From contig NZ_LT984895.1 of assembly GCF_900258505.1 (NCBI RefSeq), positions 2,250,479 through 2,314,478 on the forward strand: 64,000 bases of DNA. The letters are read 5' to 3'. Below, piece after piece: positions 13,075 to 60,696 of this stretch (position 1 is its first letter; every line of letters starts with the position of its first letter). The notes under the pieces were generated by a model that worked only from the letters and a program-made list of their open reading frames with translations, was not told where the DNA came from and ran no database searches. This DNA comes from Brachybacterium timonense (GTDB lineage: Bacteria; Actinomycetota; Actinomycetes; Actinomycetales; Dermabacteraceae). The position numbers and the translations under genes were made by a program.

Positions 13075-14775
13075 ATGCCCACCGCATCCGAGCAGAGCAC
13101 TCGTACCCCGTCCGCCCTTGACGCGCTCGCTGACCGCTACGTCGACGCCGTCGCGGCAGCGGACCCCTTCAGCGCCACCGCCCTGGGCGTTCCCGGCCAC
13201 GACCACGAAGTCACCGACTACTCCCCCGAGGGTTTCGCTGCCCGCACCGATCTGGCACGCGATCTGCTGCGAGCGATCCGTGAGGTGCCAGACGCCGACC
13301 ACACCGACACCATCACCCGAGCTGCTCTCGAGGAGCGGCTGGGGCTGGAGATCGAACGTGCCGAACGCCGGCTGGATCAGGCTGAGGTGAACAACCTCGC
13401 CAGTGTGCTGCAGTCCCGTGACGTGCTGGACCTGATGCCCGCTGAGACCGCCGATGACTGGGATGTGCTCAGCGAACGCATGGCCGCTTTCCCTCACGCC
13501 CTGCGTGGTTGGGCGCGCACCCTGCGTGAGGCCGCAGCAGACGGCGTGCGCAGTTCGCGCCGCCAGCTGCTGCTGGGCGCTGAGCAGGCACGGGGATACG
13601 CAGCGGAGGGCGGTTTCTTCGACACATTCGCGTCAGAGGCCGCGGGGGACGACGCGCAGCGCGAGCGTGCCCACACAGCCGCCCGGACCGCAGCTGATGC
13701 GTACCGCGAGCTGGCCGATGTGCTCGACGAGCTCGCCGCTGACGCACCGGCGCGGGACGCCCTGGGCCGCGAGGACTACCCCCTGGCCTCGCAGACCTTC
13801 TTGGGTGATCGGATCGACATCGACGACACCTATGCGTGGGGCGTGGATCAGCTGCGCGCGATCATCGATGAGCAGGAGCAGGTGGCCGAGCGCATCAATG
13901 CCCGATACGGCACGGGCGCCGGCCGCAGCGTGGCGGCAGCCCGCGAAGCGCTCACCGCCGACCCCGATCGGGTCCTGCACGGCACCGATGCCCTGCAGGC
14001 GTGGATGCAGGAGCTCAGCGACCGGGCTATCGCTCAGCTGGCCGATGTGCACTTCGACATCCCTGAGCCGCTGCGTGCGCTGGAGTGCCGCATCGCCCGC
14101 ACAGGCTCCGGCGGCATCTACTACACCGGCCCCAGTGAAGACCTCACCCGCCCGGGCCGCATGTGGTGGGACGTCCCCGCCGAGCAGAATGAGTTCCGCA
14201 CCTGGTCGGAGACCACCACGGTGTACCACGAGGGCGTTCCCGGTCATCACCTGCAGGTGGGAACGCAAACACTGCAGGCGTCGGCGCTGAACCGCTGGCG
14301 CGCCATGATGTGCTGGACCTCCGGTCACGGCGAAGGCTGGGCACTGTACGCCGAGCGGCTGATGGAACAGCTCGGGTACCTCGACGACGACGGCGACCGG
14401 CTGGGCATGCTCGACGCGCAGCGGATGCGCGCGGGCCGTGTGGTGCTGGACATCGGCCTGCACAATGAGCTCTCAATGCCTACGGATCTGCCCGGCTCCC
14501 GCGGCGGTGCGTGGACGTACGAGTCGGCGTGGGAGTTCATGGCCGAGCACTGGAATGACCCGGAGCCGCTGCGCCGCTTCGAGCTGCACCGCTACCTGGG
14601 CTGGCCCGGGCAGGCCCCGTCGTATCGGATCGGACAGCGCGTGTGGGAGCAGCTGCGTGATACGGCGCTCGCCCGCGGCGGCGAGGACCGCGAGGCCACG
14701 CTGCGTGATTTCCACCGGCGCGCCCTGGAGCTCGGCGGGCTGCCGCTGGCCGTGTTGCGGGATGCCCTGGCATGA
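13075..14775 (+). CDS. DUF885-family putative metallopeptidase
   Basis: A soluble protein of 566 residues belonging to DUF885, a family related in fold to M3/M32-type zinc metallopeptidases. The defining motif YHEGVPGHHLQ begins near residue 384, giving a HExxxGHH-like zinc site. GHGEGWALYAERLMEQLGY follows about 55 residues later and supplies a further conserved Glu. There is no signal peptide, so it should act in the cytoplasm. The natural substrate is unknown for this family branch; peptidase activity is an inference from the motif. It is flanked by accE and maf, and its stop overlaps the maf start. Confidence 0.83.
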   Translation: MPTASEQSTRTPSALDALADRYVDAVAAADPFSATALGVPGHDHEVTDYSPEGFAARTDLARDLLRAIREVPDADHTDTITRAALEERLGLEIERAERRLDQAEVNNLASVLQSRDVLDLMPAETADDWDVLSERMAAFPHALRGWARTLREAAADGVRSSRRQLLLGAEQARGYAAEGGFFDTFASEAAGDDAQRERAHTAARTAADAYRELADVLDELAADAPARDALGREDYPLASQTFLGDRIDIDDTYAWGVDQLRAIIDEQEQVAERINARYGTGAGRSVAAAREALTADPDRVLHGTDALQAWMQELSDRAIAQLADVHFDIPEPLRALECRIARTGSGGIYYTGPSEDLTRPGRMWWDVPAEQNEFRTWSETTTVYHEGVPGHHLQVGTQTLQASALNRWRAMMCWTSGHGEGWALYAERLMEQLGYLDDDGDRLGMLDAQRMRAGRVVLDIGLHNELSMPTDLPGSRGGAWTYESAWEFMAEHWNDPEPLRRFELHRYLGWPGQAPSYRIGQRVWEQLRDTALARGGEDREATLRDFHRRALELGGLPLAVLRDALA

Positions 14776-46657: not shown

Positions 46658-46927
46658 TCAGCCCTGGTTCGAGGTGTCGTCCTGCTCGTCGGCGTGCTTG
46701 TTCAGCTCGTCACCCTTGCCCACAAGAACCTGCTCGAGGTTGGCCACGGCGCCGTTCTGGAAGTTGTTCCAGTCATCGAGGAAGGCGTCGTAGTCCGGGC
46801 CGAGCCACTCGACGCCGCTGACGATGGTGCCGGCGTCGGCGATCGCGCTCGCCATGTCCGAACCGGTGGTGTTGAGGAGCTGCGCGACCTCGCGCCCCTC
46901 GTCCGGGTTCATCCCCTTGAATGACAT
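46658..46927 (-). CDS. WXG100 protein, pair 2 second member
   Basis: An 89-residue helical-hairpin protein of the WXG100 (ESAT-6) superfamily, a type VII secretion substrate. The turn motif is EWLGPDYDAF, where WLG replaces W-x-G in the normal position. N-terminus SFKGMNPDEGREVAQLL and C-terminus KGDELNKHADEQDDTSNQG are shared with the paralogue at 47565-47834, indicating duplication. It follows the MKKGMDPEA-type partner by 44 bp, so the two probably form a heterodimer. Confidence 0.87.
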   Translation of the reverse strand: MSFKGMNPDEGREVAQLLNTTGSDMASAIADAGTIVSGVEWLGPDYDAFLDDWNNFQNGAVANLEQVLVGKGDELNKHADEQDDTSNQG

Positions 46928-46971: not shown

Positions 46972-47232
46972 TCAGGCAGACGCGTCGCGCTGCTCGGTGG
47001 CGTTCTGACGGGCACGCTCGGCGAAATCCTCCGCCTGCTGCTTGACCTGCTGAACCAGCTGCTGGACGCTGGAATCGAAATCAGCGACGTACTGCTCGCG
47101 GTCATCACCGGTCCAGTCGAGCTCGGCCACGCGGTTCTGGGCCGTGGTGTACAGCTCCTGGACACGCTCTCCAGCCTGCTGGATCTGGTTAGCCATCTGC
47201 TCGACAGCCTCCGGGTCCATCCCCTTCTTCAT
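46972..47232 (-). CDS. WXG100 protein, pair 2 first member
   Basis: An 86-residue WXG100 protein starting MKKGMDPEAVEQMANQI. The turn is LDWTGDDREQYVADF, a canonical WXG. GGAGGG lies upstream of ATG 47232. It is closely similar to the protein at 47886-48146 (same start and same LDWTG turn). It is the first gene of a two-gene unit with its own promoter and operator box (47331-47375). Frames extending upstream cover only promoter sequence. Confidence 0.88.
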   Translation of the reverse strand: MKKGMDPEAVEQMANQIQQAGERVQELYTTAQNRVAELDWTGDDREQYVADFDSSVQQLVQQVKQQAEDFAERARQNATEQRDASA

Positions 47233-47330
47233 GGTCTTCCCTCCATGTGTGTTCCCTCGGGTCACCCGGATTGACGATCCGAGCCGTGATCCTGGGCCCC
47301 TGCGACCCGTGATCTCCAGGTGATGGCTCC

Positions 47331-47375
47331 ACTCTAGGCAGGTGGGGCATCCCGCGCGATGGGGACTAGTACCCA
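47331..47375 (-). promoter_or_regulatory. WXG100 box A with -10 element
   Basis: The plus-strand box GCGATGGGGACTAGTACCCA (47356-47375) contains the dyad TGGGGA-CTAG-TACCCA. On the minus strand it ends 19 bases before TAGAGT (complement of 47331-47336). The arrangement is repeated upstream of both other WXG100 units. The box covers the -35 position, as expected for an activator site. The predicted leader is about 93 bases. Confidence 0.65.
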
Positions 47376-47499
47376 TGACCTACCCCGACGGCTCCCCCTG
47401 GTCACCTGCCAGCAGAATGCGAGGTCAGGCGGCTGCCAGCGTGAGAACCCCGTGTGCGTCGAGCGCGCCGCCATCCCCATTCACCGTTCCTCCCCAATG

Positions 47500-47538
47500 A
47501 CAAGAGCCCCGACTCCCAGAGGGAGCCGAGGCTCTTGT
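47500..47538 (-). terminator. Long hairpin ending WXG100 pair 1
   Basis: Arms of 18 bases (47500-47517 and 47521-47538) pair with two G-T/A-C type mismatches around loop AGA. It begins 27 bases after the stop of the 47565 gene. The rest of the 188-bp gap holds the promoter of pair 2. Confidence 0.65.
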
Positions 47539-47564
47539 CGTGGCGCGAGCGATCTCGCCGGGGC

Positions 47565-47834
47565 TCAGCCCTGGTTCGAGGTCTCGTCCTGCTCGTCGGC
47601 GTGCTTGTTCAGCTCGTCAGCCTTGGCGGTGTACGCGTCGGCCAGAGCCTGCTTGGCGCCGCTGAGGTAGGAGGTCCAGTCGTTGGTGAAGTTGTCGTAG
47701 TCGGGGCCCACCCAGGCCACGGACATAACCTCGGAGTTGACGCTGTCGTGCGTGTCGCTGAGGACCGTAGCGGCCTCCTTGACCAGGTTAGCGGTCTCGC
47801 GTCCCGCCTCGGGATCCATTCCCTTGAAAGCCAT
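47565..47834 (-). CDS. WXG100 protein, pair 1 second member
   Basis: An 89-residue WXG100 protein, AFKGMDPEAGRETANLV at the start and AWVGPDYDNFTNDW at the turn. The tail KADELNKHADEQDETSNQG is nearly identical to that of the 46658 gene. It lies 51 bp after its MKKGMDPEA-type partner. The conserved C-terminal segment could contain the secretion signal; the classical YxxxD/E of mycobacterial substrates is not evident there. Confidence 0.87.
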   Translation of the reverse strand: MAFKGMDPEAGRETANLVKEAATVLSDTHDSVNSEVMSVAWVGPDYDNFTNDWTSYLSGAKQALADAYTAKADELNKHADEQDETSNQG

Positions 47835-47885
47835 GATTCTCCCCTTTTCTGAAAGTCAGTCAGTTGTTGGTATCGGTGACCGCGG

Positions 47886-48146
47886 TCAGTTCGACGCCTG
47901 GTCCTGGGCGTCGGCGTTCTGGCGCAGACGCTCGGCGAACTCGGTGAGCTGCTGCTGGCAGGTACGCGCGGCGTTGCCCACCTCGCTCTCGAACTGGCTG
48001 ATGTACTGCTGCTGGTCCTCACCGGTCCAGTCGAGCTCGTTGACCTGGTTGAGGCGCAGCTCGTAGTTCTGCATGACGTTCTCGCCGAGCTCCTCGACGC
48101 GACCCGCCAGTGCGCGCACAGCCTCGGGATCCATGCCCTTCTTCAT
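47886..48146 (-). CDS. WXG100 protein, pair 1 first member
   Basis: An 86-residue WXG100 protein, MKKGMDPEAVRALAGRV at the start and LDWTGEDQQQYISQF at the turn. GGAGGGGG precedes ATG 48146. It has a single cysteine (TCQQQL) in the second helix, absent from the pair 2 paralogue. It is the promoter-proximal gene of pair 1. Confidence 0.88.
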   Translation of the reverse strand: MKKGMDPEAVRALAGRVEELGENVMQNYELRLNQVNELDWTGEDQQQYISQFESEVGNAARTCQQQLTEFAERLRQNADAQDQASN

Positions 48147-48246
48147 TGTGTCCCCCTCCGTGGTGACAGTGTTGGATGGTCCATCACGTCGGTGGTTCTC
48201 GGTGGCTCGGGGCCTGTCCTCGATCCGCTCCGTTCGTGATGGCTTC

Positions 48247-48292
48247 ACACTATGCGTACCGCACAACACTTGGCGATGGGGAGAACTACCCA
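48247..48292 (-). promoter_or_regulatory. WXG100 box B with -10 element
   Basis: The plus-strand box GCGATGGGGAGAACTACCCA (48273-48292) contains TGGGGA-GAAC-TACCCA. On the minus strand it is 20 bases from TAGTGT (complement of 48247-48252). The bases after the -10 (GTGAAGCCATCAC) also resemble those after box A. The predicted leader is about 94 bases. Confidence 0.65.
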
Positions 48293-48545
48293 CCCTGGTG
48301 ATTTTTTGGAGACGCCCCGCTCAGGCCCCACATCTACGCAGGTCACAGCGCCGTGGATGGGTGCGAATGGGGAGGAAGGGCCGGCGGAACCGCCGAAAAT
48401 CTGGCTCTGGGATGCCGCATGGTGTCGCGTCAGCCGTATGGCGTCGCGTCACAAGACTGTGGAGCACAGAGCGAGGGCCCCGCCCGATGCCGGCGAAGCC
48501 CTCATTCTCGATACGTCGTCGGTCTCCACGACCGACGCCGTCGCG
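48293..48545. other. 253-bp gap without a gene
   Basis: This stretch lies between WXG100 pair 1 and the LpqN-like gene. It holds the terminator at 48517-48537 and three copies of GTCGCGTCA (48424, 48443, 48540). An A/T-rich ATTTTTTGG lies at 48301-48309 just upstream of box B. I see no convincing coding sequence. Confidence 0.5.
48517..48537 (-). terminator. Hairpin after the LpqN-like gene
   Basis: CGTCGGTC (48517-48524) and GACCGACG (48530-48537) form a perfect 8-bp stem with a 5-base loop, 9 bases past the stop codon. Confidence 0.55.
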
Positions 48546-49028
48546 TCACAGTCCAGTGATGGCCACCGAGTCCTGGATCCCGCGCACGACCTCGATCTCC
48601 TCCTCGGCCCCCTCAGCACCGCAGCTGCCAACGATCTCGATGACATCCACAGCAACGTCTTCGCGAGAGATCACCGCGTAGCGCGCTGCCTGCACCACGG
48701 TGGGACGCCCAGGCTGCGTGTACCCGTACTCGCTCGCCACCCACGTCGTGCCCTCAATGTCAATCTCCCCCGTGCCGAGCTCCTCCAGCTCCGGCAACGA
48801 TGCCTTGCGCTGTTCGAGACCGTTTTTCGCCGCTTCAAGCGTGAACTCGGGGCCGAAACGCTGCACCGTGACCACCACATTGGCCCGGAAGCGCCCCTCA
48901 ACGCGGGGCTGCGCGACTGCAAGCTGCACCCCCGGAACAGTCAAGGTTTCCCAATCGTCCGGAACGGACAGCGAAACGGTCGGAGGTCCGGGAAAGACCT
49001 CGCTCGGGTAAGAAATGGTCTTGCTCAT
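48546..49028 (-). CDS. LpqN/PsbP-like hypothetical protein in the type VII locus
   Basis: A cytoplasmic-looking protein of 160 residues with no signal peptide. The opening YPSEVFPGPPTVSLSVPDDW, the alternating strands VVVTVQRF and TTWVASEYGY, and the helix between them suggest the PsbP/DcrB/LpqN fold, but the match is only by pattern. GGGAGGAACGGAG precedes ATG 49028. It has its own promoter (TAGATT, complement of 49065-49070). Similar soluble proteins are often encoded beside WXG100 genes, where they may act as chaperones or effector-associated factors; that is inference. Confidence 0.6.
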   Translation of the reverse strand: MSKTISYPSEVFPGPPTVSLSVPDDWETLTVPGVQLAVAQPRVEGRFRANVVVTVQRFGPEFTLEAAKNGLEQRKASLPELEELGTGEIDIEGTTWVASEYGYTQPGRPTVVQAARYAVISREDVAVDVIEIVGSCGAEGAEEEIEVVRGIQDSVAITGL

Positions 49029-49064
49029 ATCGACGCTCCGTTCCTCCCACCGGTGGCCGCGATC

Positions 49065-49070
49065 AATCTA
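49065..49070 (-). promoter_or_regulatory. Probable -10 element of the LpqN-like gene
   Basis: TAGATT lies 36 bases before the ATG at 49028 and downstream of the terminator hairpin of the single WXG100 gene. No WXG100 box precedes it. Confidence 0.4.
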
Positions 49071-49079
49071 CCAGTATGA

Positions 49080-49113
49080 GAGCGGCCCGGGTCACATCAG
49101 ACCCGAGCCGCTC
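49080..49113 (-). terminator. Terminator of the single WXG100 gene
   Basis: GAGCGGCCCGGGTC (49080-49093) pairs with GACCCGAGCCGCTC (49100-49113), 14 bp with one mismatch and a 6-base loop, 16 bases after the stop. Confidence 0.65.
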
Positions 49114-49129
49114 CCCATCCCTCATACGG

Positions 49130-49399
49130 TCAGTTCGAGGAGGTCGCCTCCTGCTGACCGGCGTTGCGGTCAGCGCTCTCACCGAGCTCGTTCACGGCGT
49201 CCTTGACCTGCAGCAGTGCAGGCACCATCTCGCCCGCCCACTGGTCGCGGAAGCGGTCCGCATCCGGGCCGGTCCAGTCGACTCCCTCCAGCCCACTGGT
49301 GAGCTCCTGCTCGATCCGCAGAATCTCATCCGCGGCATCACGCAGCTGGCCCGCCATGCGACGGACCTCTTCAATGTTCATGCCCTTGACAGCGTTCAC
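49130..49399 (-). CDS. WXG100 protein, single copy next to eccC
   Basis: An 89-residue WXG100 protein beginning with GTG (MNAVKGMNIEEVRRMAGQL). The turn is VDWTGPDADRF. It ends GQQEATSSN, unlike the two paired families. AAAGGGGA lies about 10 bases before the GTG; the ATG at 49381 is an alternative. It lies downstream of the EssC-like ATPase gene but has its own box and -10. It may be the homodimeric core substrate of the machine. Confidence 0.86.
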   Translation of the reverse strand: MNAVKGMNIEEVRRMAGQLRDAADEILRIEQELTSGLEGVDWTGPDADRFRDQWAGEMVPALLQVKDAVNELGESADRNAGQQEATSSN

Positions 49400-49473
49400 G
49401 GCTCGGGTTCCCCTTTCCTGGTCTGCGACTCGCCCGCGCCCCCATCGGGTGCACCGGCCCCTGCCTCGGGATC

Positions 49474-49518
49474 ACTCTAGAGGGGCTTCATCACCGGGGC
49501 GATGGGGAGGAGTCCCCA
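49474..49518 (-). promoter_or_regulatory. WXG100 box C with -10 element
   Basis: The plus-strand box GCGATGGGGAGGAGTCCCCA (49499-49518) has a perfect dyad TGGGGA-GGAG-TCCCCA. On the minus strand it is 19 bases from TAGAGT (complement of 49474-49479). It gives a leader of about 68 bases to the single WXG100 gene. This copy best shows the symmetry of the operator. Confidence 0.65.
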
Positions 49519-49577
49519 TGTGGACATCCCGCGATCGCATGCGGATGACCCGGCCCCAGAGCTCTTCCCTCCAGGCG

Positions 49578-52500
49578 TCATGTGGTGATCTGGGCGGTCT
49601 GAAGCTTCACCGCACGCCCGCTGTAGACCAGGAAGCCACGGCCCGCCGGGAAATCAGCCCGACGAATGCGGCCCAGGTTGGTGCCCAGCAGGGAGTCACC
49701 GTCCATCTCACCGGGTTGCAGCAGCAGACCGCGACGCCCCGCCTTGAACGGCTGCGCGAGCAGATACGCCTGCGACCAGGAGGCAGACTCGTTCTCGCCC
49801 ACCACGAACTGCCCCTCGCGGGTGCACGCTCGAATGAGCTTGTCCAGGTCGTTCTCCACGCCGGTGCCCGTGAAGTCAGCAACGCCGTCGATGAACAGTG
49901 CCAGCTGTCCCTCCGGCACCGCACCACTCTCGACGGCGCTGAACAGCTGGCCCGCGAGCTCCTTCACGGTCTCCGGGTCTGATCCCTCCACATCCCAGAC
50001 GGGAAGGCCCGTCAGAGGCGTGCGTCGAGAGGAGAATCGCACCAGGCGCATTGGGTTCGGCATCGCCTTCAGGCCGCTGGCGATCGTCAGCATCGCCGTG
50101 GTGCGGCCGGAGCTCATCGGCCCGGTGACCATGAACGCGCCACGCGGTTCGTAGGTGACCTCGGCCAGTGTCTCGTCGCCCATGCCGATAACAGGCATGC
50201 CGTCCACGACCGGGCGCAACTGCGAGAACTCCACGCGCTCAGGCAGACGGAGCACCTCGGGCGCCTCCGGTACGCCGGCGCGGCGCATCGCCTTGGCGAG
50301 CTTAGAGACCTCGCGCGACTGGATCGCCACGTTCGCATCGCCGCCGTGGACGGCGATCTGAACCTCATGGCCCTGCAGAATGGCGCGGCCAGGAGGTGAC
50401 TTGCTGTCCAGGATGTCTTTTGCCTCGCCGAACGCGAGATAGTCGTCGACGCTCGCCATGCGGTGAATGAGCCGCCGCTGGATCGAGGAGCCCAGGGACG
50501 TCGGGATGGCGTTGGGTCGATCACCGGTGACGATCACATGGATGCCCACCTGACGGCCATCGGTCGCGATCTGCACGAAGGTGGTGAACCACTTGGTGAG
50601 GTTCGAGAAGTCGTACGCCTCACGGAAGGCGGCCATGCCGTCCACCAGCAGCAGGATGCGCGGGGTGTCCGGTTTCCCAGCCAACTCGCGGTATTCGGAC
50701 ACAGATCCGGCACGGAGCTTCGCGAAGTCACGGGCCCGCTCGTCAATCGTCTGCCGCAAGGTGCGCAGCAAGCGGATCACGCGCTCCTCGTCATCGCCCG
50801 GCACGATCGATCCGACGTGCGGCAGCTCCTCCAGCATGGTCAGGCCAGAGGCACCGAAGTCCAGGCCGTACACCTGCACAGGGCCACCACGCACCGTGGA
50901 CGCTGCAGAAATGGCGATCGTGCGCAGCGTGGTGGACTTGCCGGAACCACCGGTGCCGTAGATCGCCATATTGCCGTCCTGGTCCGGGAAATAGGAGACA
51001 GTCGGCTGAGCCTGATCCTCCGGCACGTCCATCACGCCCAGCAGCAGCTCTTCGTCGGTACGCCGCGTCGGAAGACGGGAGAGGTCGTACGCTTCGGCTA
51101 GCTCGGACAGCCACGGCTTGCGCGGGGCCGGCACACCCGCCTGCTCAGCCGCTTTGGTGATGGTTGCGACCATGCGGGAGATGTCATTCGGACCGGGGTC
51201 CTTGACCTCCTTCTTCGGCGGAGCTGGGATATCCCATTTCTCGCCGGTGCCGAAGTCCTTCTCGACCACGTCGATGCGGGCCCGCTCCGGTTCGTCGGTG
51301 GTCCAGCCTCCGGCATACCCCGTCTGGAAGGTGGCGATACGGCCGGGGCCGGTCTTCGCGGCGGCACGACCGGGAATGCCGGGATCGAAGTGGGCGGCCA
51401 TCTTGTCGCCCAGGATGTCCTTGGAGTCTGCTTCGTCGGCCATGCGCAGGGCGATGCGCAGGTTGGTGTTCGCGCGCAGGTTGTCCTTGATCACGCCAGC
51501 GGGCCGCTGGGTGGCGAGGATCAGGTGCAGTCCGAGTGAGCGGCCACGGGCGGCGACGTCCACGACGCCGTCGACGAACTCCGGGATCTCCTTAGCCAGA
51601 GCTGCGAACTCATCGACGATGATGATCAGGCTCGGCGGCGCCTCGGGGTCACCGGTGCGCTCCAGCGAGACGAGGTCCTTGGCCTTCTTCCGGTTGAGCA
51701 GGTGCTCGCGGTAGTGCAGCTCAGCGCGCAAAGACGTCAGGGCGCGGCGCACGAGGTGCGGGGAGAGGTCGGTGACCAGGCCGACGGCGTGCGGCAGTGT
51801 GATCGCGTCGGCGAACGCGGCACCACCCTTGTAGTCCACGAACAGGAAGGTGACGCGGTCCGGGCTGTGGGCGGTGGCCATACCCATCACCCAGGCCTGC
51901 AGGAACTCTGATTTACCGGCACCGGTGGTGCCGCCGACGAGGGCGTGCGGGCCCTGGGTACGCAGGTCGAGGTGGAAGGCGTCCTGACCGTTATGGCCGA
52001 TCAGCCCGCGCAGGTTCGCATCATGCTTACGGCGCTGCGGTTCGCTGCCATCGCGCGGGGTCAACGAGTTGTTCTGCTTCCAGCGCTCAATGATGGCGCC
52101 CGGGTCCTCCGCCAGTTCCATCCCGCCGAGCTTGAGGTAGGAGATCGCGCGCGGCAGATCGGAATCGTCGTCGATCGGTACGCCCGCGTCGACGACGGGG
52201 GACAGATGACGCGCCACACCGGCGGCGACGTCGACCGAGACGGTCTCGACGCTCACGGGGTAGAACCGTTCACCGAGTCGCACGTGGCCGGCACTGGCAC
52301 CCTCGACGGACTCATCCACCGAGATGTAGGTGCGGCAGGCGGCCGGGAGGGCGGCGACGTTGGAGGCGCACCACACGATGTGCACGCCGACGTCGGGGCC
52401 GCGCTCCGCGAGGCGCACTAGGCGAGCGCGATCCACCGGCGCATCATCCTCGATGATGACCACCAGGTTCGGAGTGATGGGCTCCGGCGGGATGTCCGGT

Positions 52501-54041
52501 TCCTTGGTGATGTCCGTGGTCATCGGGGTGCGCAGCTGCGGCGCTTCACCGCCGCCACGTTGTTCGATCAGCTCTTCGATGCGGCTGAGCAACGACGTAC
52601 CGCGCCCCGGGGTGTCCGCAAGGTGGTCACCGGGCAGCGGCGAGTGGGGACTGGAGGTGTGCGGCAGCCATTTCAGCCACTCCCACATGTCGCGGCTGGA
52701 ACGCGAGGTGATCGCGGCGATGGCGATCTCCGCCGGGGAGTGCAGCGCGAACAGCTGGGTGATAATGCCGCGTGCCACACCGTCGGCGGCGTCCCCTCCC
52801 CCGGCGATGCCGATGTTGCCCGCGTACCGAAGCTCAGCAACGATCGGCACACCCGCGATGAGCTTATACTCCTCGTGCATGTCATCGAGCATGTCGTAGT
52901 ACTTCGGGATGGCGTCGTTCTCTGCCGGCATCTCGATGCCCACGCGAGACTCGGCCACGCCCAGGCCCAGGCGCACGGTCGCGAAAGCGTTGTGCTCAGG
53001 TCGGTGGGTCCACAGCAGCCGCCCCAGCCGGAACGCGGCGTCGACGGTGTCCGCTGCGGAGGGCGTCTCCACCAGACGTACCGCTCGTTCGAGATCCTGT
53101 GCCGCGGTGACCCGCCGCTTCAGCGAGGCGAGCCCTTCTTCGAAGTTCTTGATCTGTCGTTCGAGGACCTTCTTCTGCTGGAATTTGCGGTTCAGGAAGC
53201 CGGCGGTCGCCATCATCGGCATCATGAACACGAACATGAGCGAGAACGGGCTGCGGGTCATCGAGAACATGAAGGCGCCCATGAGGATCGGCGCGAACAT
53301 CATGAAGATCGGGAAGAACTGCGGCTGCGGCTCTTTTGGGGGTGTTGGCGCCTTCATCGGCCGGTAGGGGAAGCGCGGCACCACACGCGGAGACCGGTTG
53401 AACTCCACCACCGGCGAGTTCGGTGTCGTGCCGCCCAGACGGTGCAGGGCGATCACGGAGAAGGTGGTCTGACCGATCAGCACGGTGTCCGCCGGGCCGA
53501 CGACGGCGCGTTGCACCTGTTCACCACCGATGACGACACCGTTGGAGGAGTGCAGGTCGACGATCTCGATGGAGTCGCCCACGTTGATGCGGGCGTGACG
53601 TTTGGACAGCATTGGGTCGGCGATGCGGATATCAAGGTCACCTTCGCGGCCGATCACGCTCGACCCGCTGGGCAGTGGAAACTCACGGCCTGCCTCTGGT
53701 CCCGACAGCACGCGCAGCAGTGCGACGGCCGCGCCGCGTGACTCGGATTTCGTGGCGTACTCGCTGCTGGAGCGCGCGATGGAGACAATGGATCCAGAGC
53801 GCAGACCCGCCTGGATGAGGTCGATCTCGCGATCGAGGGAGCGCACGCCTGCAGCACCGGGACCAGCGCCCGGATCCTGCACCTGCAGAGTGAGACCCTC
53901 GGGCGCCTCCACCTCCGAGCGCAGCGGGTCTGCGAGATACAGAGCATTGGCTACATCGGCGACCGTCGCGGTGGCATCGGCCGTCACCTCAAGATCGGTC
54001 AGCCTGTCCTCCGGCCGCCGCAGCGTGAGCTTGATGCGCAT
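49578..54041 (-). CDS. EssC/EccC-like FtsK/SpoIIIE ATPase of type VII secretion
   Basis: The motor ATPase, 1487 residues. Residues 1-90 look like a ubiquitin-like beta-grasp domain. Residues 105-200 are an FHA domain (GREGDLDI, SKRHARI, HSSNGV). Two membrane helices lie at about 241-283. Three FtsK/SpoIIIE modules follow: D1 with Walker A GGTTGAGKS (703-711) and Walker B LIIIVDE with catalytic Glu 811; D2 with GTGGSGKS (1029-1036) but LLLVDG without the Glu; D3 with GPMSSGRTT (1307-1315) where Lys is replaced by Arg. Only D1 seems able to hydrolyse ATP. FHA plus single-chain layout resembles Firmicutes EssC more than mycobacterial EccC. GGAGGAAGG precedes the ATG. Confidence 0.93.
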   Translation of the reverse strand: MRIKLTLRRPEDRLTDLEVTADATATVADVANALYLADPLRSEVEAPEGLTLQVQDPGAGPGAAGVRSLDREIDLIQAGLRSGSIVSIARSSSEYATKSESRGAAVALLRVLSGPEAGREFPLPSGSSVIGREGDLDIRIADPMLSKRHARINVGDSIEIVDLHSSNGVVIGGEQVQRAVVGPADTVLIGQTTFSVIALHRLGGTTPNSPVVEFNRSPRVVPRFPYRPMKAPTPPKEPQPQFFPIFMMFAPILMGAFMFSMTRSPFSLMFVFMMPMMATAGFLNRKFQQKKVLERQIKNFEEGLASLKRRVTAAQDLERAVRLVETPSAADTVDAAFRLGRLLWTHRPEHNAFATVRLGLGVAESRVGIEMPAENDAIPKYYDMLDDMHEEYKLIAGVPIVAELRYAGNIGIAGGGDAADGVARGIITQLFALHSPAEIAIAAITSRSSRDMWEWLKWLPHTSSPHSPLPGDHLADTPGRGTSLLSRIEELIEQRGGGEAPQLRTPMTTDITKEPDIPPEPITPNLVVIIEDDAPVDRARLVRLAERGPDVGVHIVWCASNVAALPAACRTYISVDESVEGASAGHVRLGERFYPVSVETVSVDVAAGVARHLSPVVDAGVPIDDDSDLPRAISYLKLGGMELAEDPGAIIERWKQNNSLTPRDGSEPQRRKHDANLRGLIGHNGQDAFHLDLRTQGPHALVGGTTGAGKSEFLQAWVMGMATAHSPDRVTFLFVDYKGGAAFADAITLPHAVGLVTDLSPHLVRRALTSLRAELHYREHLLNRKKAKDLVSLERTGDPEAPPSLIIIVDEFAALAKEIPEFVDGVVDVAARGRSLGLHLILATQRPAGVIKDNLRANTNLRIALRMADEADSKDILGDKMAAHFDPGIPGRAAAKTGPGRIATFQTGYAGGWTTDEPERARIDVVEKDFGTGEKWDIPAPPKKEVKDPGPNDISRMVATITKAAEQAGVPAPRKPWLSELAEAYDLSRLPTRRTDEELLLGVMDVPEDQAQPTVSYFPDQDGNMAIYGTGGSGKSTTLRTIAISAASTVRGGPVQVYGLDFGASGLTMLEELPHVGSIVPGDDEERVIRLLRTLRQTIDERARDFAKLRAGSVSEYRELAGKPDTPRILLLVDGMAAFREAYDFSNLTKWFTTFVQIATDGRQVGIHVIVTGDRPNAIPTSLGSSIQRRLIHRMASVDDYLAFGEAKDILDSKSPPGRAILQGHEVQIAVHGGDANVAIQSREVSKLAKAMRRAGVPEAPEVLRLPERVEFSQLRPVVDGMPVIGMGDETLAEVTYEPRGAFMVTGPMSSGRTTAMLTIASGLKAMPNPMRLVRFSSRRTPLTGLPVWDVEGSDPETVKELAGQLFSAVESGAVPEGQLALFIDGVADFTGTGVENDLDKLIRACTREGQFVVGENESASWSQAYLLAQPFKAGRRGLLLQPGEMDGDSLLGTNLGRIRRADFPAGRGFLVYSGRAVKLQTAQITT

Positions 54042-54121: not shown

Positions 54122-54832
54122 TCAGTCCTCGTCCTCATCCTGTGCCTGGTCCAGCAGCGGCAGATCCGCGGTCGTCACCAGACGCGAGAACACGGCATGC
54201 TCGACGAGTCGAGCGCGCCGGTTGCTGGCAAGCTTGCCGGGTCCACCCCGCAGGCCGCGCACCCCCATGCGGTCCAGCTTGTCGCACACGTTATCGAGCT
54301 TGCGGTTGAACTTCGTCAGCGCCCACCCCAGCCGTTTCGCGGCCTGCGCGGATGTGGGAACGGAACTCATGCCACTGCCTTCACGCACGAGCATCGGTTC
54401 GGCGAGCGCAAGGATCAACAGCTTCTGGCTGGCGGTCAGCTGAACCGACCCCACCGTGGTCTCCCCCACCGGGTCATCCGCCGAGGCGATCCGTTCGAAG
54501 TCGGGCGACTCGGCGTGCACCGACAGATCGTAGGTGGTCGGTCCCGCGGTGAAGACCACCTTCGTTTCATCGAATACCAGCGGGATCCGGGCCCCGGGTG
54601 CCAGCCACGCCTGCATCGACCCGCTGCCATCGGTGATGGTGGCGGACAGGCGCGAGCCGATGTTCACCAGCCACCACATCGACTCGACCTGCAGGATCGA
54701 CAGGAACTTCCGGTGGAGGAACGGGTTGTCGTCATCCACGTTGAGGTCCGCGTCGCGGCCGATAGTGAACTCCTGTCCGTCAGCTACGCGGAACCATTCG
54801 CCGCAGAATTCCACAGAGATCGAGGACGCCAT
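54122..54832 (-). CDS. FHA domain protein with C-terminal winged-helix-like domain
   Basis: A soluble protein of 236 residues. Residues 5-110 form an FHA domain (FTIGRDADLN with GR at 25-26, and H40 in NPFLHRKF), which binds phosphothreonine. Residues 130-212 (LTASQKLLILALAEP, VPTSAQAAKRLGWALTKFNR, GVRGLRG, LASNRRARLVEHAV) have the helix-turn-helix-wing pattern of a DNA-binding domain. The order FHA then HTH is the reverse of EmbR. It lies between the Ser/Thr kinase and the ATPase gene. It is the best local candidate for the regulator of the WXG100 boxes; this is inference. AAGGAACTG precedes the ATG. Confidence 0.72.
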   Translation of the reverse strand: MASSISVEFCGEWFRVADGQEFTIGRDADLNVDDDNPFLHRKFLSILQVESMWWLVNIGSRLSATITDGSGSMQAWLAPGARIPLVFDETKVVFTAGPTTYDLSVHAESPDFERIASADDPVGETTVGSVQLTASQKLLILALAEPMLVREGSGMSSVPTSAQAAKRLGWALTKFNRKLDNVCDKLDRMGVRGLRGGPGKLASNRRARLVEHAVFSRLVTTADLPLLDQAQDEDED

Positions 54833-54923: not shown

Positions 54924-56579
54924 TCATGTTCCCTCCAGGCAGGTGGTGGCCCAGGCGCTTGTCGTGCCGTCCTTGGTCATCGCACGCACACGGACGCATC
55001 GTTCGGGCAGGTTGGGAGGCACGTTCAGCACGGTGCTGTTACGTCCGTACACCTCAACCGGTTCGGAATAGTCCTGGTAGTTCTCGGGCAGGTCCTGCCA
55101 CTGCACCGCGTAGTACACGTCCGCGGTCGCTTCTGGAGGCAATGACCACACCACCTGGGCGCGGCCGCCGAGACCGTGCTCCTCAGGGACGATGAGCTTG
55201 ACGGACAGGTCTCCCGGCGGCGAGATCGAGGTAGGCCCGGCAACGGGAGGCGGGGCCGGCGCCGGGTCATCCTTCTCATCGCCGAACATGCTGCGCACCA
55301 GCAACGTGGACCCCACCCCGAGAGCGATCACGAGGAACCCGGCGATGAGGACGAATGGCCAGACCGGGGTACGTCGCGTCGGGGTGTCGTCCTGCGGCGC
55401 CGGGGCGGCCGACTCATTCGCCGACATCGGTGTGTGTGCACGGGGCAGTGCGGCTCCTGCGGGACGCAGCACCGTGGATTCCCCGGATTGCGTCTGGTCC
55501 AGCGCGGACATGGATGACGGCGCCGACATCGGCGAGGACAGTGCCGGGGCGACGCCCGCGTACCTGTCGAGCTGCGGCTTCGACGGCTCGCCCGTGGTTC
55601 CGGGGGACGCCGGCCCCGTCGGGTCGACCGTGGCGACCTTGCGGATACGGGTGTGGGACTCGAGCTCGTCGTCCCCGTCGGCGTCTGCGGTGGTTGCTCC
55701 GCGGTCGTCCAGCACGTCCATCTGCGTGACCGGCAGCGAGAGCGCCATCTCGGCCTGCTGGAGGGCACGGCCGAAGGCGAGCGCAGAGTCATATCGACCT
55801 GACGGGTCCTTCGCCATGGCGACCGACAACACGCGGTTCAGTTCGGGCGGCACGTCGGGGCGGGAGAGCGGGCGCAGCGGCTCGGTTTCGATGCGGGTGA
55901 TGAGGTCCGCCGCAGTGTTGCGCTGGCCTACACGCTCGAACGGGGTGTGCGAGGCGAGCAGCGAGTACACGGTCGCCGCCAGGGAGAACACGTCGGAGCG
56001 CACGTCGGCACGCGGCGGGTCGGCGAAGAACTCCGGCGGCGACCACGGGATCGACATGCCCTGGGAGTCCTCGATGTCATGGCCCTGGCCCGAGGTGATG
56101 GAGATGCCGAAATCCGTCAGTGCCGGACGGTTGTAGTCCGTGACAAGGATGTTCGCCGGTTTGATGTCGCGGTGCAGGATGCCGGCGCGGTGGGCGGTTT
56201 CCACGGCACCCGCGATCTGGACGCCGACGCGCAACGCCTCCGACACCGAGATCCGTTCTTTGCGGAAGCGCACTCCATAGTTCGGGCGTGAGCAGAACTC
56301 CATCACGATGTACGGGCGGTGCTCGCTGGAGACGTCCGCCTGGTAGATCGTGACGATCGAGGGGTGCGTGGACATCGTGGCCATCACGTTGGCCTCGGAC
56401 TCGAACTGCTGGCGCACCGTGTCATCGAGAATGCTCGCGAGCAGCACTTTGATGGCCACGCGGCGCTGCGGCCGCAGCTGCCGGTACAGGAACACGTCGG
56501 CGAATCCGCCGGATCCCAGCAGACGCTCGAAGTCGTAGCCAGGCAGTGAGGGTGGTGGGGACGGCGGTCGTGGCGTCAC
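54924..56579 (-). CDS. Transmembrane Ser/Thr protein kinase
   Basis: A Hanks-type kinase of 551 residues. The kinase domain (14-280) has the glycine loop LLGSGGFADVF, K44 (VAIK), HRDIKPANI with catalytic D138, and DFG at 156-158. A Pro/Ala/Ser-rich juxtamembrane region (about 285-403) leads to a single helix (405-428, WPFVLIAGFLVIALGVG). The outside part (about 450-551) looks like a fibronectin type III-like beta domain (VVWSLPPEATADVYYAVQW), not PASTA repeats. It overlaps the large FHA gene. With PP2C and FHA partners it forms a phospho-switch at the secretion locus. Confidence 0.92.
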   Translation of the reverse strand: MTPRPPSPPPSLPGYDFERLLGSGGFADVFLYRQLRPQRRVAIKVLLASILDDTVRQQFESEANVMATMSTHPSIVTIYQADVSSEHRPYIVMEFCSRPNYGVRFRKERISVSEALRVGVQIAGAVETAHRAGILHRDIKPANILVTDYNRPALTDFGISITSGQGHDIEDSQGMSIPWSPPEFFADPPRADVRSDVFSLAATVYSLLASHTPFERVGQRNTAADLITRIETEPLRPLSRPDVPPELNRVLSVAMAKDPSGRYDSALAFGRALQQAEMALSLPVTQMDVLDDRGATTADADGDDELESHTRIRKVATVDPTGPASPGTTGEPSKPQLDRYAGVAPALSSPMSAPSSMSALDQTQSGESTVLRPAGAALPRAHTPMSANESAAPAPQDDTPTRRTPVWPFVLIAGFLVIALGVGSTLLVRSMFGDEKDDPAPAPPPVAGPTSISPPGDLSVKLIVPEEHGLGGRAQVVWSLPPEATADVYYAVQWQDLPENYQDYSEPVEVYGRNSTVLNVPPNLPERCVRVRAMTKDGTTSAWATTCLEGT

Positions 56580-59500
56580 GGCAGCCCCCTCATGAGCAGC
56601 ACGACGCCATCGCCCAGGTCGAGTGTGTCGCCGGAGATGAGCCCCACACCTTCGCGTGGCCGCAGCCGTCTGGCCGCGTTGCCTGCGCGAAGCAAGGTGG
56701 TGCCGTTGGTGGTGCCGAGGTCAACAGCGAGCACGCGCCAGCCTTCCAGACGCAGTTCGAGATGGGAACGGGAAACATCCTGCTGCGGGCTGGGCACGGT
56801 CACCAGCTGCGGCACATCCGACCCGCTCACACGGGAGGCGCGAGGCCTCCGCCCGATAATGGCGGAGCGTTCCAGGGTGAATGATCCGCCGGTGGAAATC
56901 TCGACGCTGCCCAAGACAGGCCGCGTCACAGTCTCGGTGGCCCCGCCGAGCGCTGCACCGCAGACGAAGCAGGCTCCGCGCTCCGGGGGGTTCGCGTGCC
57001 CGGCCGGGCACACCACGCCAACAAGTTGCGGCGCTGAGGTGTTCGAGCTGCTGGAGCGCGGGGTCCCACGGTGCGTGTTCTCGCTGCGTGCCGAGGCGGG
57101 ATCGCTCCCGGGGCCTGTTGGGGCGGCAGGTGCGTGCTGCGGCGCCGCCGACGCTTGGGGCACAGGTCCCGCAGCCGGCACGGGGTGCGGGGCGCTCGCA
57201 TGGCGCGGTCCCTGCGGCGAGGCGCCCTGAGGACGCATGCCCTGGGGAGGGTGCCCCTGCTGGGGCATGCCGGGGGGCGCTGCCGCAGGTGCCTGCGGGG
57301 AGGCTCCATGAGGTGGCTGCCTGGGGGCATCGAAGCCCTGCGTTGGATGCGGGCCGGCAGGGCGCTGCCGCATCTGCGGTGGCGCCGGACGGTGAACGGG
57401 CTGCGGCGCAGCAGGCGACGCGAACGAGCCGTGCTGCCACGCGGCAGGCGGTTGTGGCGCCCCCGGAGCGTGTCCCGCGGGGCCCATCGGAGCGGCTGGA
57501 CGCTGTGGCCCGGCCGGGTAATGGGGGCCGACGGGGTGCTGCGGGGCACCGTATCCCTGCGGGGGCACCGCGGGAGAGCCCACCGCAGGATGTCCAGGCC
57601 CGTACTGTCCTGGCGCAGGCTGCTGCGGCGGAATCTGCTGAGCGGCGGAGCCTGGCACCGATGTCGCCGACGGGTATGCCGGGTTCTGGCCAGCTGGCGG
57701 CGAGGGCTGTTGCGAGACGTGCTGCGCCCGGGTGGGTGTCGGCGGCCGTTCGGGCATGTGGACCTGCGGGTATGCAGTCGGCGGTGGTGGCGGGGCGGCC
57801 GCTCGGCGAGCTGCCGTGTGCGCGATCTCCGGTGCTTCACGGCCAACGCCCGGCACCCAGTCGATGAAATCGCCGCCGATTGTGGACGATGCCGCATCCG
57901 CTGTGGCACCGAGCGGCTGGGCCAGCGCTGAGGTCTGCTCGTTCTCGGGGCCCTGCTGCGGAGATTCCGGCTCGGGTTTCGGCTCGGGCGCGGGAGACTT
58001 CTCCTTCTGCGCCGGTTCGTCCTCGTGCTCATCGTCGCGCTTGCGCACGGCGGCGTCCTCGATACGTCGGAAGATCGTCTTGCCGAACAGGTCGTCGTAC
58101 TCGTCGGCACCGTCGTCCTCGGTCTCCGCTGGGAGCGATGGTGCGGATGCCGGAGCGTTCTGGGCGGGAGCAGCAGCCGCGGCGCTCTCGGCGTCGTCCT
58201 CGCCGGCATCCTCGTCGTCAATCGGCGCGACGAGGGTGACGGGTGAATCGTCGTCTTCTGGCGGCTCTGGCGTCGGCATCGAGGTGGCGGAGCTCCGCGG
58301 GGCTGGCTGCGGGCGCGCGGGCTCCCCCGGCATCGCAGGCTGTGCTGGCGCCGCGGAATCCGCAGACGCTGCGGCGGCTGCGGAATCCTCCTCGGCGGGA
58401 GCAGTCGGCTCTGCGGGCTCAGCAGGAGCACCGGGCTCGGGCTCGGCCCCGGCCGATGCAGGCGGCTCTGCGGACTCGGCACGAGCAGCTGGCTCTGCGG
58501 GCTCCACAGGAGCAGTCGGCTCTGCGGTCTCTGCCTCAGTCGAGGCAGGCGGCTCGACGGAGTCAGTGTTCTGTGTCGGCGCTGGATCATCTGCCGGTGC
58601 GGGACTCGGCTGCACAGGGCTTTCGCCCGCAGGACTCGGCTGTGGCGGAGTCTCCTTAGGCTGCGGGGCCTGCTGAGGCGCAGGGCTTTGCGCAGGAGCG
58701 GTCTTCTCCTTCGTCGGCGCCGCACGCCGACGATCGAAGAGAGATGTGCTGACCAGCCGCCGGCGAGGCCGTTGCCCGCTCTGAGGACTCGACGCTGTCC
58801 CCTGCGCCGATGCAGAACTGGCGGTGGCCCCGTCCGCAGAGGGAGCAGCCGCCGGAGTCGTCTCGGCGGCAGGCGCGGTCGAGGCCGACGCGGCCGATGC
58901 GGCTGCCGTCGACGCAGCTGGTGCAGCGGGGGCCACGGCATCCTGCGCAGCGGGAGCGGGCTGTGCCGGAGCGGGCGCTGCGGGAGCGGGCTGTGCCGGA
59001 GACGAACTGAAGAGGTTGTCGAACACACTCGGCCCTGCGGGCTTCTCCGGTGTCTCGGGCTTTGCGGGACCGCGTGTCGAGGATGTGCGTGAGGGCGATG
59101 ACATACGCCGTGTGGCAGCCGTCGCGGAACGCGGCGACATCGAGGAGAACGATCCCGAGGACGAGCTCGACGTGGACGGCTTGGGCTTGGGTGGAGGCGG
59201 AGGCGCTTCGGCCCGCTTTTTCTTCGCCTCCTCGGTCTCGATCGAGCGTCCGTCGTCCTTGACCTGCTGTGCTAGCGCAGAACGCGCGTCATCGTCCAAC
59301 GATGAGGGGTCCACCAGTGCGTGGACGAAGCCACGGATGCGTGCCATGCCAGCCTCGATACGAAGACCACCGGTGCTGCTCTCTTCGGGCAGGTCACCGA
59401 AGGCGACGCGGCGAACCCCGTCGAAGGTTTTCGTGACCACGGGTTCGTCGTCGGTGCCGATGACCTGCTGAGATCCGTCGGCCGTGTAGACGCCGATCGG

Positions 59501-59824
59501 GGTCGATCCCTTGACACAGATCGTTGTGCTCTCACCGTGGGTGAACCCGAACATCACGGCCTTGAGGTCATCGGGACCTTCGAAACCGGCCTTCTCGATC
59601 AGTGCACTCATCAGGGCATCTGCGGAGTCAGGCCGGTCCTTCAGCACGGTCCAGGCGGCGTCGATCAGCGACTTGCGAGCCCCGGGCACCAGAACGATCC
59701 AGGCTCCGTCGCGCACCACGAGCGTAGCCGGGCCAGCGCGGAACCAGAGCCCCTCATCGAGGAGGGGATTCTCGGTCTTCTCCGCGCCGTCGGTCGCGTC
59801 GTCGGCAGGCTTTTCGTTGCTCAT
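56576..59824 (-). CDS. Large Pro/Ala-rich protein with zinc ribbon and C-terminal FHA domain
   Basis: A protein of 1082 residues. Residues 1-190 form a globular domain I do not recognise (LWFRAGPATLVVRDGAWIVLV, VTKTFDGVRRVAFGDLP). Residues 200-930 are low-complexity Pro/Ala/Glu/Gln, likely disordered. A zinc ribbon lies near 939-960 (CPAGHANPPERGACFVCGA). The FHA domain fills 972-1082 (IGRRPR, SRSHLELRL, GTTNGT). It has no membrane helix. The disordered part offers many kinase sites and the FHA could bind the adjacent kinase. The start overlaps the PP2C stop and its end overlaps the kinase start. Confidence 0.82.
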   Translation of the reverse strand: MSNEKPADDATDGAEKTENPLLDEGLWFRAGPATLVVRDGAWIVLVPGARKSLIDAAWTVLKDRPDSADALMSALIEKAGFEGPDDLKAVMFGFTHGESTTICVKGSTPIGVYTADGSQQVIGTDDEPVVTKTFDGVRRVAFGDLPEESSTGGLRIEAGMARIRGFVHALVDPSSLDDDARSALAQQVKDDGRSIETEEAKKKRAEAPPPPPKPKPSTSSSSSGSFSSMSPRSATAATRRMSSPSRTSSTRGPAKPETPEKPAGPSVFDNLFSSSPAQPAPAAPAPAQPAPAAQDAVAPAAPAASTAAASAASASTAPAAETTPAAAPSADGATASSASAQGTASSPQSGQRPRRRLVSTSLFDRRRAAPTKEKTAPAQSPAPQQAPQPKETPPQPSPAGESPVQPSPAPADDPAPTQNTDSVEPPASTEAETAEPTAPVEPAEPAARAESAEPPASAGAEPEPGAPAEPAEPTAPAEEDSAAAAASADSAAPAQPAMPGEPARPQPAPRSSATSMPTPEPPEDDDSPVTLVAPIDDEDAGEDDAESAAAAAPAQNAPASAPSLPAETEDDGADEYDDLFGKTIFRRIEDAAVRKRDDEHEDEPAQKEKSPAPEPKPEPESPQQGPENEQTSALAQPLGATADAASSTIGGDFIDWVPGVGREAPEIAHTAARRAAAPPPPPTAYPQVHMPERPPTPTRAQHVSQQPSPPAGQNPAYPSATSVPGSAAQQIPPQQPAPGQYGPGHPAVGSPAVPPQGYGAPQHPVGPHYPAGPQRPAAPMGPAGHAPGAPQPPAAWQHGSFASPAAPQPVHRPAPPQMRQRPAGPHPTQGFDAPRQPPHGASPQAPAAAPPGMPQQGHPPQGMRPQGASPQGPRHASAPHPVPAAGPVPQASAAPQHAPAAPTGPGSDPASARSENTHRGTPRSSSSNTSAPQLVGVVCPAGHANPPERGACFVCGAALGGATETVTRPVLGSVEISTGGSFTLERSAIIGRRPRASRVSGSDVPQLVTVPSPQQDVSRSHLELRLEGWRVLAVDLGTTNGTTLLRAGNAARRLRPREGVGLISGDTLDLGDGVVLLMRGLP
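58300..59010. repeat. Degenerate codon repeats encoding the Pro/Ala/Glu-rich region
   Basis: The DNA for the central disordered region repeats variants of GGCTCTGCGG and GCAGGAGCA, giving PAEPTAPAEPAE-like protein. Copies are imperfect and of varying spacing, so this is a low-complexity coding stretch and not a satellite. Length variation between strains would be expected. Confidence 0.55.
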
Positions 59825-60696
59825 GCGCTCTCACCGCCGAATCCGGGTAGTGCTCGCGGCAGCGTGTCCTCGTCCAGTTCGTGCACCGACGTGTTCGGGT
59901 CGGTGTCTTCATCTGACCTGTTACCACGTCCAGACAAGCCCACCACGTCGAGCGCCTCGACCACGAGAACGGTGACGTTGTCGCGGCCACCAGCGGCGAG
60001 CGCCAACTGCACGAGGTCTTCGCACACCGTGCGGACATCCACGGGGCTGCGCAGAACGCGTTCGATGGTGGCGTCGTCGACCTCGCCGGTGAGCCCGTCG
60101 GAGCATACGAGCATCCGGTCACCGACTTCCGCCGGGATCAGCCAGTAGTCCGGCTCCGACTCCGGCCCGGCGCCGAGGGCGCGGGTGACCATGTGCCGGT
60201 AGGGATGCACCTTCGCCTCGTCGGCGCTGAGCTCCCCACGGTCCATCAACTCCTGCACGACGGAGTGGTCCACGCTGACCTGCTCGAAGATGTCATCCGA
60301 GAGTCGGTACACACGCGAGTCGCCCAGGTTCAGCACCACCCAGTAGCCCACGCCGTCCAAAGCCATCGTCGCCACCAGTGCCACCGTCGTGCCGGCGCCA
60401 GCCTCTGCCTCACCGCCCAGCTCGCCGATCCGCTGCGCGGCCGAAGCCAGTGCATCCCCAAGCTGCTCGACGGTCACGGTGCTGCCGAGCGTGAGCTTCT
60501 CAAACTCCTCCACCGCGATCGCGCTGGCGACCTCACCGGCGTTGTGGCCGCCCATACCGTCGGCAACGAGGAAGACGGGGCTCTGGTCCAGATGCGAGTC
60601 CTCGTTCGTCGCGCGCACGTGTCCGACGTGCGTGACGGCTGCGGAGGTGACGTGGATGGTGCCGTTGACGGGCGCGTCGGGGTTCACCGGGGTCAC
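59821..60696 (-). CDS. PP2C-family Ser/Thr protein phosphatase
   Basis: A metal-dependent phosphatase of 291 residues that would reverse the action of the neighbouring kinase. The PP2C motifs are THVGHVRATNEDSHLD, VFLVADGMGGHNAGEVAS, LNLGDSRVYRL, VTRALGAG, and VCSDGLTGEVDD, with GGRDNVTVLVVE near the C-terminus. All metal-binding Asp residues (NED, ADGMGG, SDGL, RDN) are present. It has no transmembrane segment, unlike mycobacterial PstP. The GTG start overlaps the stop of the RDD-FHA gene. Confidence 0.94.
   Translation of the reverse strand: MTPVNPDAPVNGTIHVTSAAVTHVGHVRATNEDSHLDQSPVFLVADGMGGHNAGEVASAIAVEEFEKLTLGSTVTVEQLGDALASAAQRIGELGGEAEAGAGTTVALVATMALDGVGYWVVLNLGDSRVYRLSDDIFEQVSVDHSVVQELMDRGELSADEAKVHPYRHMVTRALGAGPESEPDYWLIPAEVGDRMLVCSDGLTGEVDDATIERVLRSPVDVRTVCEDLVQLALAAGGRDNVTVLVVEALDVVGLSGRGNRSDEDTDPNTSVHELDEDTLPRALPGFGGESA

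Follow-up and report, generated by a model that had tools for sequence, protein, structure and literature searches.

Regulators that combine an FHA domain with a helix-turn-helix (HTH) are known from several actinobacteria, and we compare them here with a candidate from the type VII secretion system (T7SS) locus of Brachybacterium timonense. The window, meaning the whole stretch of DNA analysed, covers 64,000 nucleotides (contig NZ_LT984895.1, positions 2,250,479 to 2,314,478). It carries a palindromic promoter box before its WXG100 genes and a nearby gene for a predicted FHA/LuxR-like protein, which we propose as the probable regulator acting on that box.

Closest described systems

EmbR joins an FHA domain to a SARP-type HTH and is controlled by PknH; its DNA-binding domain and targets differ from those of our candidate. 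An EmbR structure is listed as 2fez. In the available excerpts of PMC7002343 and PMC11005418, EspM, a regulator of the mycobacterial ESX-1 system, is described as an FHA–HTH regulator of secretion. Like EspM, the candidate appears to have an N-terminal FHA domain and a C-terminal HTH region, is encoded beside a secretion locus and would act on T7SS-associated genes. EspM, however, regulates whiB6 and, with at least 363 amino acids, contains two HTH domains plus a helical bundle, whereas the candidate has 236 amino acids and one predicted LuxR-like HTH, and its predicted activator site lies upstream of many WXG genes; the candidate gave no match to the EspM equivalog model NF052403 at E≤0.1. 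FHA+LuxR proteins are also listed in Nocardia and Rhodococcus in part of PMC3466318, a part in which we found no function or DNA site for them. They share the domain combination in name, a likeness of description rather than of compared sequences, and the candidate's HTH escapes the GerE model. In predicted fold this putative HTH resembles those of the LuxR/NarL-type activators VqmA, LiaR and TraR, and VqmA, in the excerpt of PMC8284805 available, likewise has a palindromic site. Unlike all three, the candidate has a predicted FHA-like sensor domain in place of a receiver domain or ligand pocket.

The excerpts of PMC11217815 place an FHA-bearing EssC-type ATPase and a kinase, in some cases with a phosphatase, in the clusters of T7SSd and other variants, and the window locus has the same three elements. 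They also give a separate FHA component for T7SSe, f and j, cite kinase-dependent transcriptional activation of a T7SS by IreK of Enterococcus faecalis, and contain LytR-like TsiN of T7SSi as their one cluster regulator; Brachybacterium, an FHA–HTH regulator and a DNA site were not found in these excerpts. In the open-licence literature searched, we recognised no paper on the box, its regulon or an FHA/LuxR regulator of a T7SS, and found little on T7SS regulation outside mycobacteria and Firmicutes. The preliminary description of this DNA knew of no named regulator for the site.

A palindromic box at a fixed distance from the −10 element

The preliminary description reported three 20-bp boxes before WXG100 transcription units, each 19 or 20 bp from a TAGNGT −10 element on the minus strand. 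The pattern GCGATGGGGANNNNTMCCCA matches the window exactly at 47356-47375, 48273-48292 and 49499-49518; as promoter elements, all three boxes read on the minus strand and point at the WXG100 genes. At up to three mismatches, seven matches are found against 1.90 expected (two of the seven are boxes 1 and 3 read on the opposite strand), and none of 100 shuffles reached seven. The boxes thus lie where they had been placed and exceed chance. The boxes and −10 elements are as follows.

47359..47376, minus strand: box 1, 18-bp dyad; core 47360-47375 reads TGGGTACTAGTCCCCA on the minus strand
47331..47336, minus strand: −10 element of unit 1, TAGAGT, 23 bp beyond the box core
48276..48293, minus strand: box 2, 18-bp dyad; core 48277-48292 reads TGGGTAGTTCTCCCCA on the minus strand
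48247..48252, minus strand: −10 element of unit 2, TAGTGT, 24 bp beyond the box core
49502..49519, minus strand: box 3, 18-bp dyad; core 49503-49518 reads TGGGGACTCCTCCCCA on the minus strand, a perfect dyad
49474..49479, minus strand: −10 element of unit 3, TAGAGT, 23 bp beyond the box core

Distances of 23, 24 and 23 bp are counted from the 16-bp dyad and equal the reported 19–20 bp from the 20-bp box; the dyad is, as described, perfect in the third copy, with one mismatch each in copies 1 and 2. The earlier account of the box itself needs revision. The conserved box is real, but its conserved unit is the 18-bp palindrome ATGGGGAGTnCTCCCCAT. The −35 region, in which no good element had been seen, is indeed poor, but a degenerate −35 (TSGYC) is present beside the box, and the leading GCGA of the 20-bp box is its start. 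This revision follows from a matrix of 55 sites, built only from sites with a −10 at 23 bp, in which the palindrome is followed by TSGYC at the place where a −35 falls with a 17-bp spacer to the −10.

Among 45 boxes scoring at least 11/12 in the window and the T7SS stretches fetched from the genus, 44 have a TANNNT at 23 bp (37) or 24 bp (7); the sole exception is the outer of two overlapping boxes in L069 (L and G numbers denote loci or stretches and genomes, respectively). With the −10 elements assigned by sequence and their first T set as −12, the dyad centre falls near −43. Class II activators have sites with a dyad centred near −41 to −43 at promoters with a weak −35, and the box has both this position and a degenerate −35. 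From its position, the box is very probably an activator-type (class II) site. The activator proposed in the preliminary description thus gains support from the fixed −10 spacing and the centre near −43, together with the genome-wide distribution and genus conservation given below, with activation itself read from position. A CATCACCTGGRG-like stretch directly 3′ of the −10 is common to the leaders of several paired WXG units (for example, window 47310-47330).

The box marks a probable regulon scattered over the genome

The host genome (3.09 Mb in 4 contigs) contains exact TGGGGANNNNTMCCCA at 13 places, 11 of them perfect dyads. Allowing one mismatch gave 27 forward and 29 reverse matches, compared with 7 and 3 for a backward-pattern control. 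This control, mostly zero in the genus genomes, and the reversed sequence rule out a chance or repeat artefact. A permutation control on 31 stretches outside the genus came out less clean. With TGGGGA arms, 12 sites were found in 10 loci, and none of 29 arms of the same composition yielded more than 5; of 400 random arms with four G/C, however, 13 had at least 12 sites. Two mismatches drown the signal (89 matches versus 75 for the control in G031, 107 versus 115 in G009 and 121 versus 123 in G017).

WXG-domain genes follow 7 of the 11 perfect-core sites; the other four have no WXG-like open reading frame (ORF) within 320 bp, and the genes next to them look by eye like those of lipoproteins or small proteins. 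The earlier claim that the box stands only before WXG100 genes therefore holds for the window but not for the genome, and as to occurrence at many unrelated sites, which had been named as evidence against the box, it does occur elsewhere, yet most perfect-core sites precede WXG-domain genes. Searching the genome with 14 aligned WXG N-termini identified 20 places, one a 36-residue fragment, leaving 19 full genes; this census is not blind, since the query alignment came mostly from box-associated genes (46658..46927 in the window was part of it). Each of the 19 is preceded within 1.5 kb by a match scoring 10/12 or better. With the L215 box left out (10/12, no −10 at 23 or 24 bp), 18 of the 19 count as boxed. 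These share 16 distinct boxes, and 16 of them lie within 450 bp of one, including the second genes of the window's two paired units; the remaining two are 854 and 906 bp away, an operon being plausible for the gene at 854 bp. A TANNNT −10 lies 23 or 24 bp from the box for 16 of the 19.

Behind an exact box lies L007:2886-4184, which encodes a WXG-type protein; it has a DNA/RNA non-specific endonuclease domain (E=6.5e-8, above the cut-off) and is, from its sequence, a candidate T7SS nuclease effector. Also among the ten proteins scanned were a WXG-type protein with a PGAP1-like alpha/beta stretch, slightly below the cut-off, and an LppM-domain lipoprotein encoded after one of the non-WXG boxes. 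Similar proteins recur, by eye, behind non-WXG boxes elsewhere in the genus (LppM-like lipoproteins, an MSALP-type protein and a small membrane protein), and the regulon appears to take in a few envelope proteins besides WXG genes. With so fixed a promoter signature, scattered T7SS effectors such as the nuclease-domain protein could be sought from promoter sequence. Transposase-like ORFs were noted by eye near WXG genes behind 11/12 boxes (L016:3740-4218 and L021:2821-3857).

Conservation in Brachybacterium and other genera

Of 36 genus genomes, 35 carry exact boxes, with 2 to 17 per genome; among 22 genomes from the order's remaining families, 5 do, with 1 or 2 apiece. An EssC search returned 19 loci at 79-92% identity, of which 18 bear the name Brachybacterium and the other comes from an Actinomycetales metagenome-assembled genome; 17 of the 19 contain at least one box of 11/12, the others being L074, which ends inside EssC, and L067, to which we return below. 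From three further Brachybacterium genomes, 40 distinct exact sites were taken (17/17 in G011, 14/14 in G020 and 9/12 in G026). A WXG-like ORF begins within 320 bp after 21 of these (11, 7 and 3, respectively), with a −10 at 23 or 24 bp on the WXG side at 18 of the 21; 19 are without such an ORF. Outside the genus, the −10 is found at 23 or 24 bp in 12 of 16 sites examined, 15 of them picked because they score 11/12 or better and the last with 10/12, and boxes of at least 11/12 occur in 10 of 31 stretches around the FHA gene. The box is thus kept before WXG100 genes in relatives, both within the genus and beyond it; lack of such conservation was the second refutation named in the preliminary description.

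A candidate regulator encoded within the locus

The gene proposed for the regulator sits between those for a Ser/Thr kinase and an EssC-type ATPase.

54122..54832, minus strand: candidate regulator, 236 amino acids, predicted FHA domain and C-terminal LuxR/NarL-like HTH, proposed from predicted structure and co-occurrence with the box

Neither Pfam (E≤5) nor NCBIfam (E≤0.1) gave a match, the FHA and GerE sequence models both missing the protein; a genome search with PF00196 (E≤0.001) omits the gene, and profile comparison gave 4%. On its predicted structure we call it an FHA domain joined to a LuxR/NarL-like HTH, whose structural matches include the DNA-binding domains of LiaR and VraR. FHA domains bind phosphothreonine through G, R, S, H and N residues; in the FHA part, G25, R26, H40 and N57 are invariant in 13 sequences and the usual Ser position is not conserved. 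In three loci of one other genus (L125, L126 and L128), an 11/12 box lies directly 3′ of the FHA gene, before an ORF of ~1,800 amino acids.

The box co-occurs with the FHA protein

Among 394 genomes of the class, 33 contain a strong FHA homologue (E<1e-40; four weaker matches, E 3.7e-9 to 7.3e-12, were placed in the FHA− group) and 74 contain exact boxes. In cross-tables counted by hand and uncorrected for relatedness, exact boxes were found in 22/33 FHA+ versus 52/361 FHA− genomes (backward control, 5/33 versus 33/361) and, with the genus removed, in 20/31 versus 52/361. The difference persists among other genera of the same order (17/24 versus 1/14) and among genomes whose EssC is very close (E=0; 14/21 versus 0/4). 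For 20 of the 25 close EssC loci, we scored boxes of at least 9/12 with a −10 at 23 or 24 bp downstream of EssC: 12/16 FHA+ loci have one and 0/4 FHA− loci do, one of these four extending only ~400 bp downstream; the reversed control gave 1 match on the 20 loci. Of the other five, the host's own, G010 and G345 are boxed, G043 has two exact boxes without a −10 at 23 or 24 bp, and G040 has none. G201 has three exact boxes beside EssC although its FHA gene is ~540 kb away.

Within the genus, the FHA protein is present in 36 of 38 genomes. G031 (99% complete) has no FHA protein and, alone among the 36 genomes scanned for boxes, no exact box, while keeping EssC (51% identical) and WXG genes; neither kinase nor phosphatase was found in its T7SS stretch, the only part searched. 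We accept G031 as a clean knock-out only in part, as it differs in other ways too.

Several observations weigh against the FHA protein as regulator. No exact box was found in 11 of the 33 FHA+ genomes, and G001 (74% complete) has 10 boxes with no FHA match. L067 has only decayed boxes (13492-13507, 10/12, and 14732-14747, 9/12) beside an FHA gene of 86% identity. Sequence evidence for the HTH is weak, and no box precedes the regulator's own operon in the window, where we looked for autoregulation. With these points set against the co-occurrence and the predicted fold, we still regard it as probable that the protein encoded at 54122-54832 is the regulator of the box.

Proposed mechanism and alternatives

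On the observed site, spacing, distribution and co-occurrence, we propose that the box is most likely the binding site of a transcription activator of a T7SS regulon and that this activator is the FHA/LuxR-like protein. A dimer on the 18-bp palindrome, centred at ~−43, would recruit RNA polymerase to promoters with a good −10 (TANNGT) and a degenerate −35, as in class II activation, and would thereby control WXG100 partners, WXG-fused effectors and a few envelope proteins. The activator may be tuned by the adjoining kinase and by the PP2C phosphatase, whose gene is close by and on the same strand; neighbourhood and domain content make such phosphorylation control an evenly balanced prospect. 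We see an equal chance that kinase, phosphatase and FHA/LuxR-like activator form a new signalling route in Micrococcales and some other actinobacteria, switching on a scattered T7SS effector regulon through one palindrome, with a phosphothreonine-reading FHA domain replacing the receiver domain of LuxR-type proteins. The proposal gives a possible account of how a little-known secretion system of bacteria is turned on, and the named candidate makes it directly testable.

It is unlikely that the box is bound by a different member of the LuxR/NarL family, for instance a two-component response regulator, with the FHA protein governing T7SS assembly instead. GerE-domain matches number 11 in the genome, and the presence of LiaR and VraR among the structural matches means that the shape of the box does not single out the FHA protein; for five of the 11 (L081, L083, L085, L089 and L090), G031 has no clear orthologue (best identity 30-52%, one only over 53 residues). 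The remaining six, however, have orthologues of 71-78% identity in box-free G031, which favours the FHA protein a little, and box presence tracks the FHA protein even where its gene is far from EssC. A second alternative treats the box as a repressor operator, at which the protein blocks the promoter until phosphorylation releases it. Lying directly against the −35, the box could obstruct polymerase, but the −35 is degenerate and the dyad keeps its centre near −43, neither of which we judge a repressor to need, and we consider this quite improbable. That the boxes are regulator-free copies spread by duplication of WXG cassettes, as the relatedness of WXG genes and some shared leaders might suggest, can be dismissed almost entirely, because box and −10 are conserved in the 55-site matrix while the stretch between them varies, and because boxes are found in front of non-WXG genes for lipoproteins and membrane proteins and in further genera as well.

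The T7SS locus of the window

The other genes of the locus are listed below.

46658..46927, minus strand: WXG100-like gene, second of unit 1; no Pfam match, census E=3.6e-29
46972..47232, minus strand: WXG100 gene, first of unit 1; Pfam WXG100 E=1.8e-5, below the curated cut-off; in the census
47565..47834, minus strand: WXG100-like gene, second of unit 2; no Pfam match, NCBIfam WXG100_ESAT6 E=0.0074, below cut-off; in the census
47886..48146, minus strand: WXG100 gene, first of unit 2; Pfam WXG100 E=9.8e-5, below cut-off; in the census
49130..49399, minus strand: WXG100 gene of unit 3; Pfam WXG100 E=5.4e-5 and NCBIfam WXG100_ESAT6 E=1.5e-7, both below cut-off
49578..54041, minus strand: EssC/EccC-type ATPase with N-terminal FHA domain; FtsK_SpoIIIE and FHA matches, TIGR03928 EssC E=1.1e-163, below the equivalog cut-off
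54924..56579, minus strand: Ser/Thr kinase; Pkinase E=3.4e-37
56576..59824, minus strand: 1082-amino-acid ORF between the phosphatase and kinase genes; 44% identity over 567 residues to the L074 ORF in the same position
59821..60696, minus strand: PP2C-type phosphatase; PP2C_2 E=1.7e-11

The five WXG100 genes encode 86-89 amino acids with a central WxG, whose W and G are invariant in 14 aligned sequences. None of the five reaches the curated cut-off of PF06013 (27.3 bits), three matching at E 1.8e-5 to 9.8e-5 and two giving no match; a protein encoded elsewhere in the genome, L009:2808, passes it (30.1 bits). The catalytic motifs of the kinase are intact (AIK42, HRDIKPAN136 and DFG156), and a single hydrophobic segment from ~residue 406 is a putative membrane anchor. 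Matches from a plasmid search with EssC were all below 60% identity and were set aside.

The N- and C-terminal parts of the 1082-amino-acid ORF match the G031 T7SS stretch at 36-40% identity, and the kinase and FHA genes are missing there. Two small proteins are encoded near WXG genes, one at window 48546-49028 with no Pfam match and one at L009:3748-4248 with only a weak DcrB match in Pfam; both are possibly dedicated partners.
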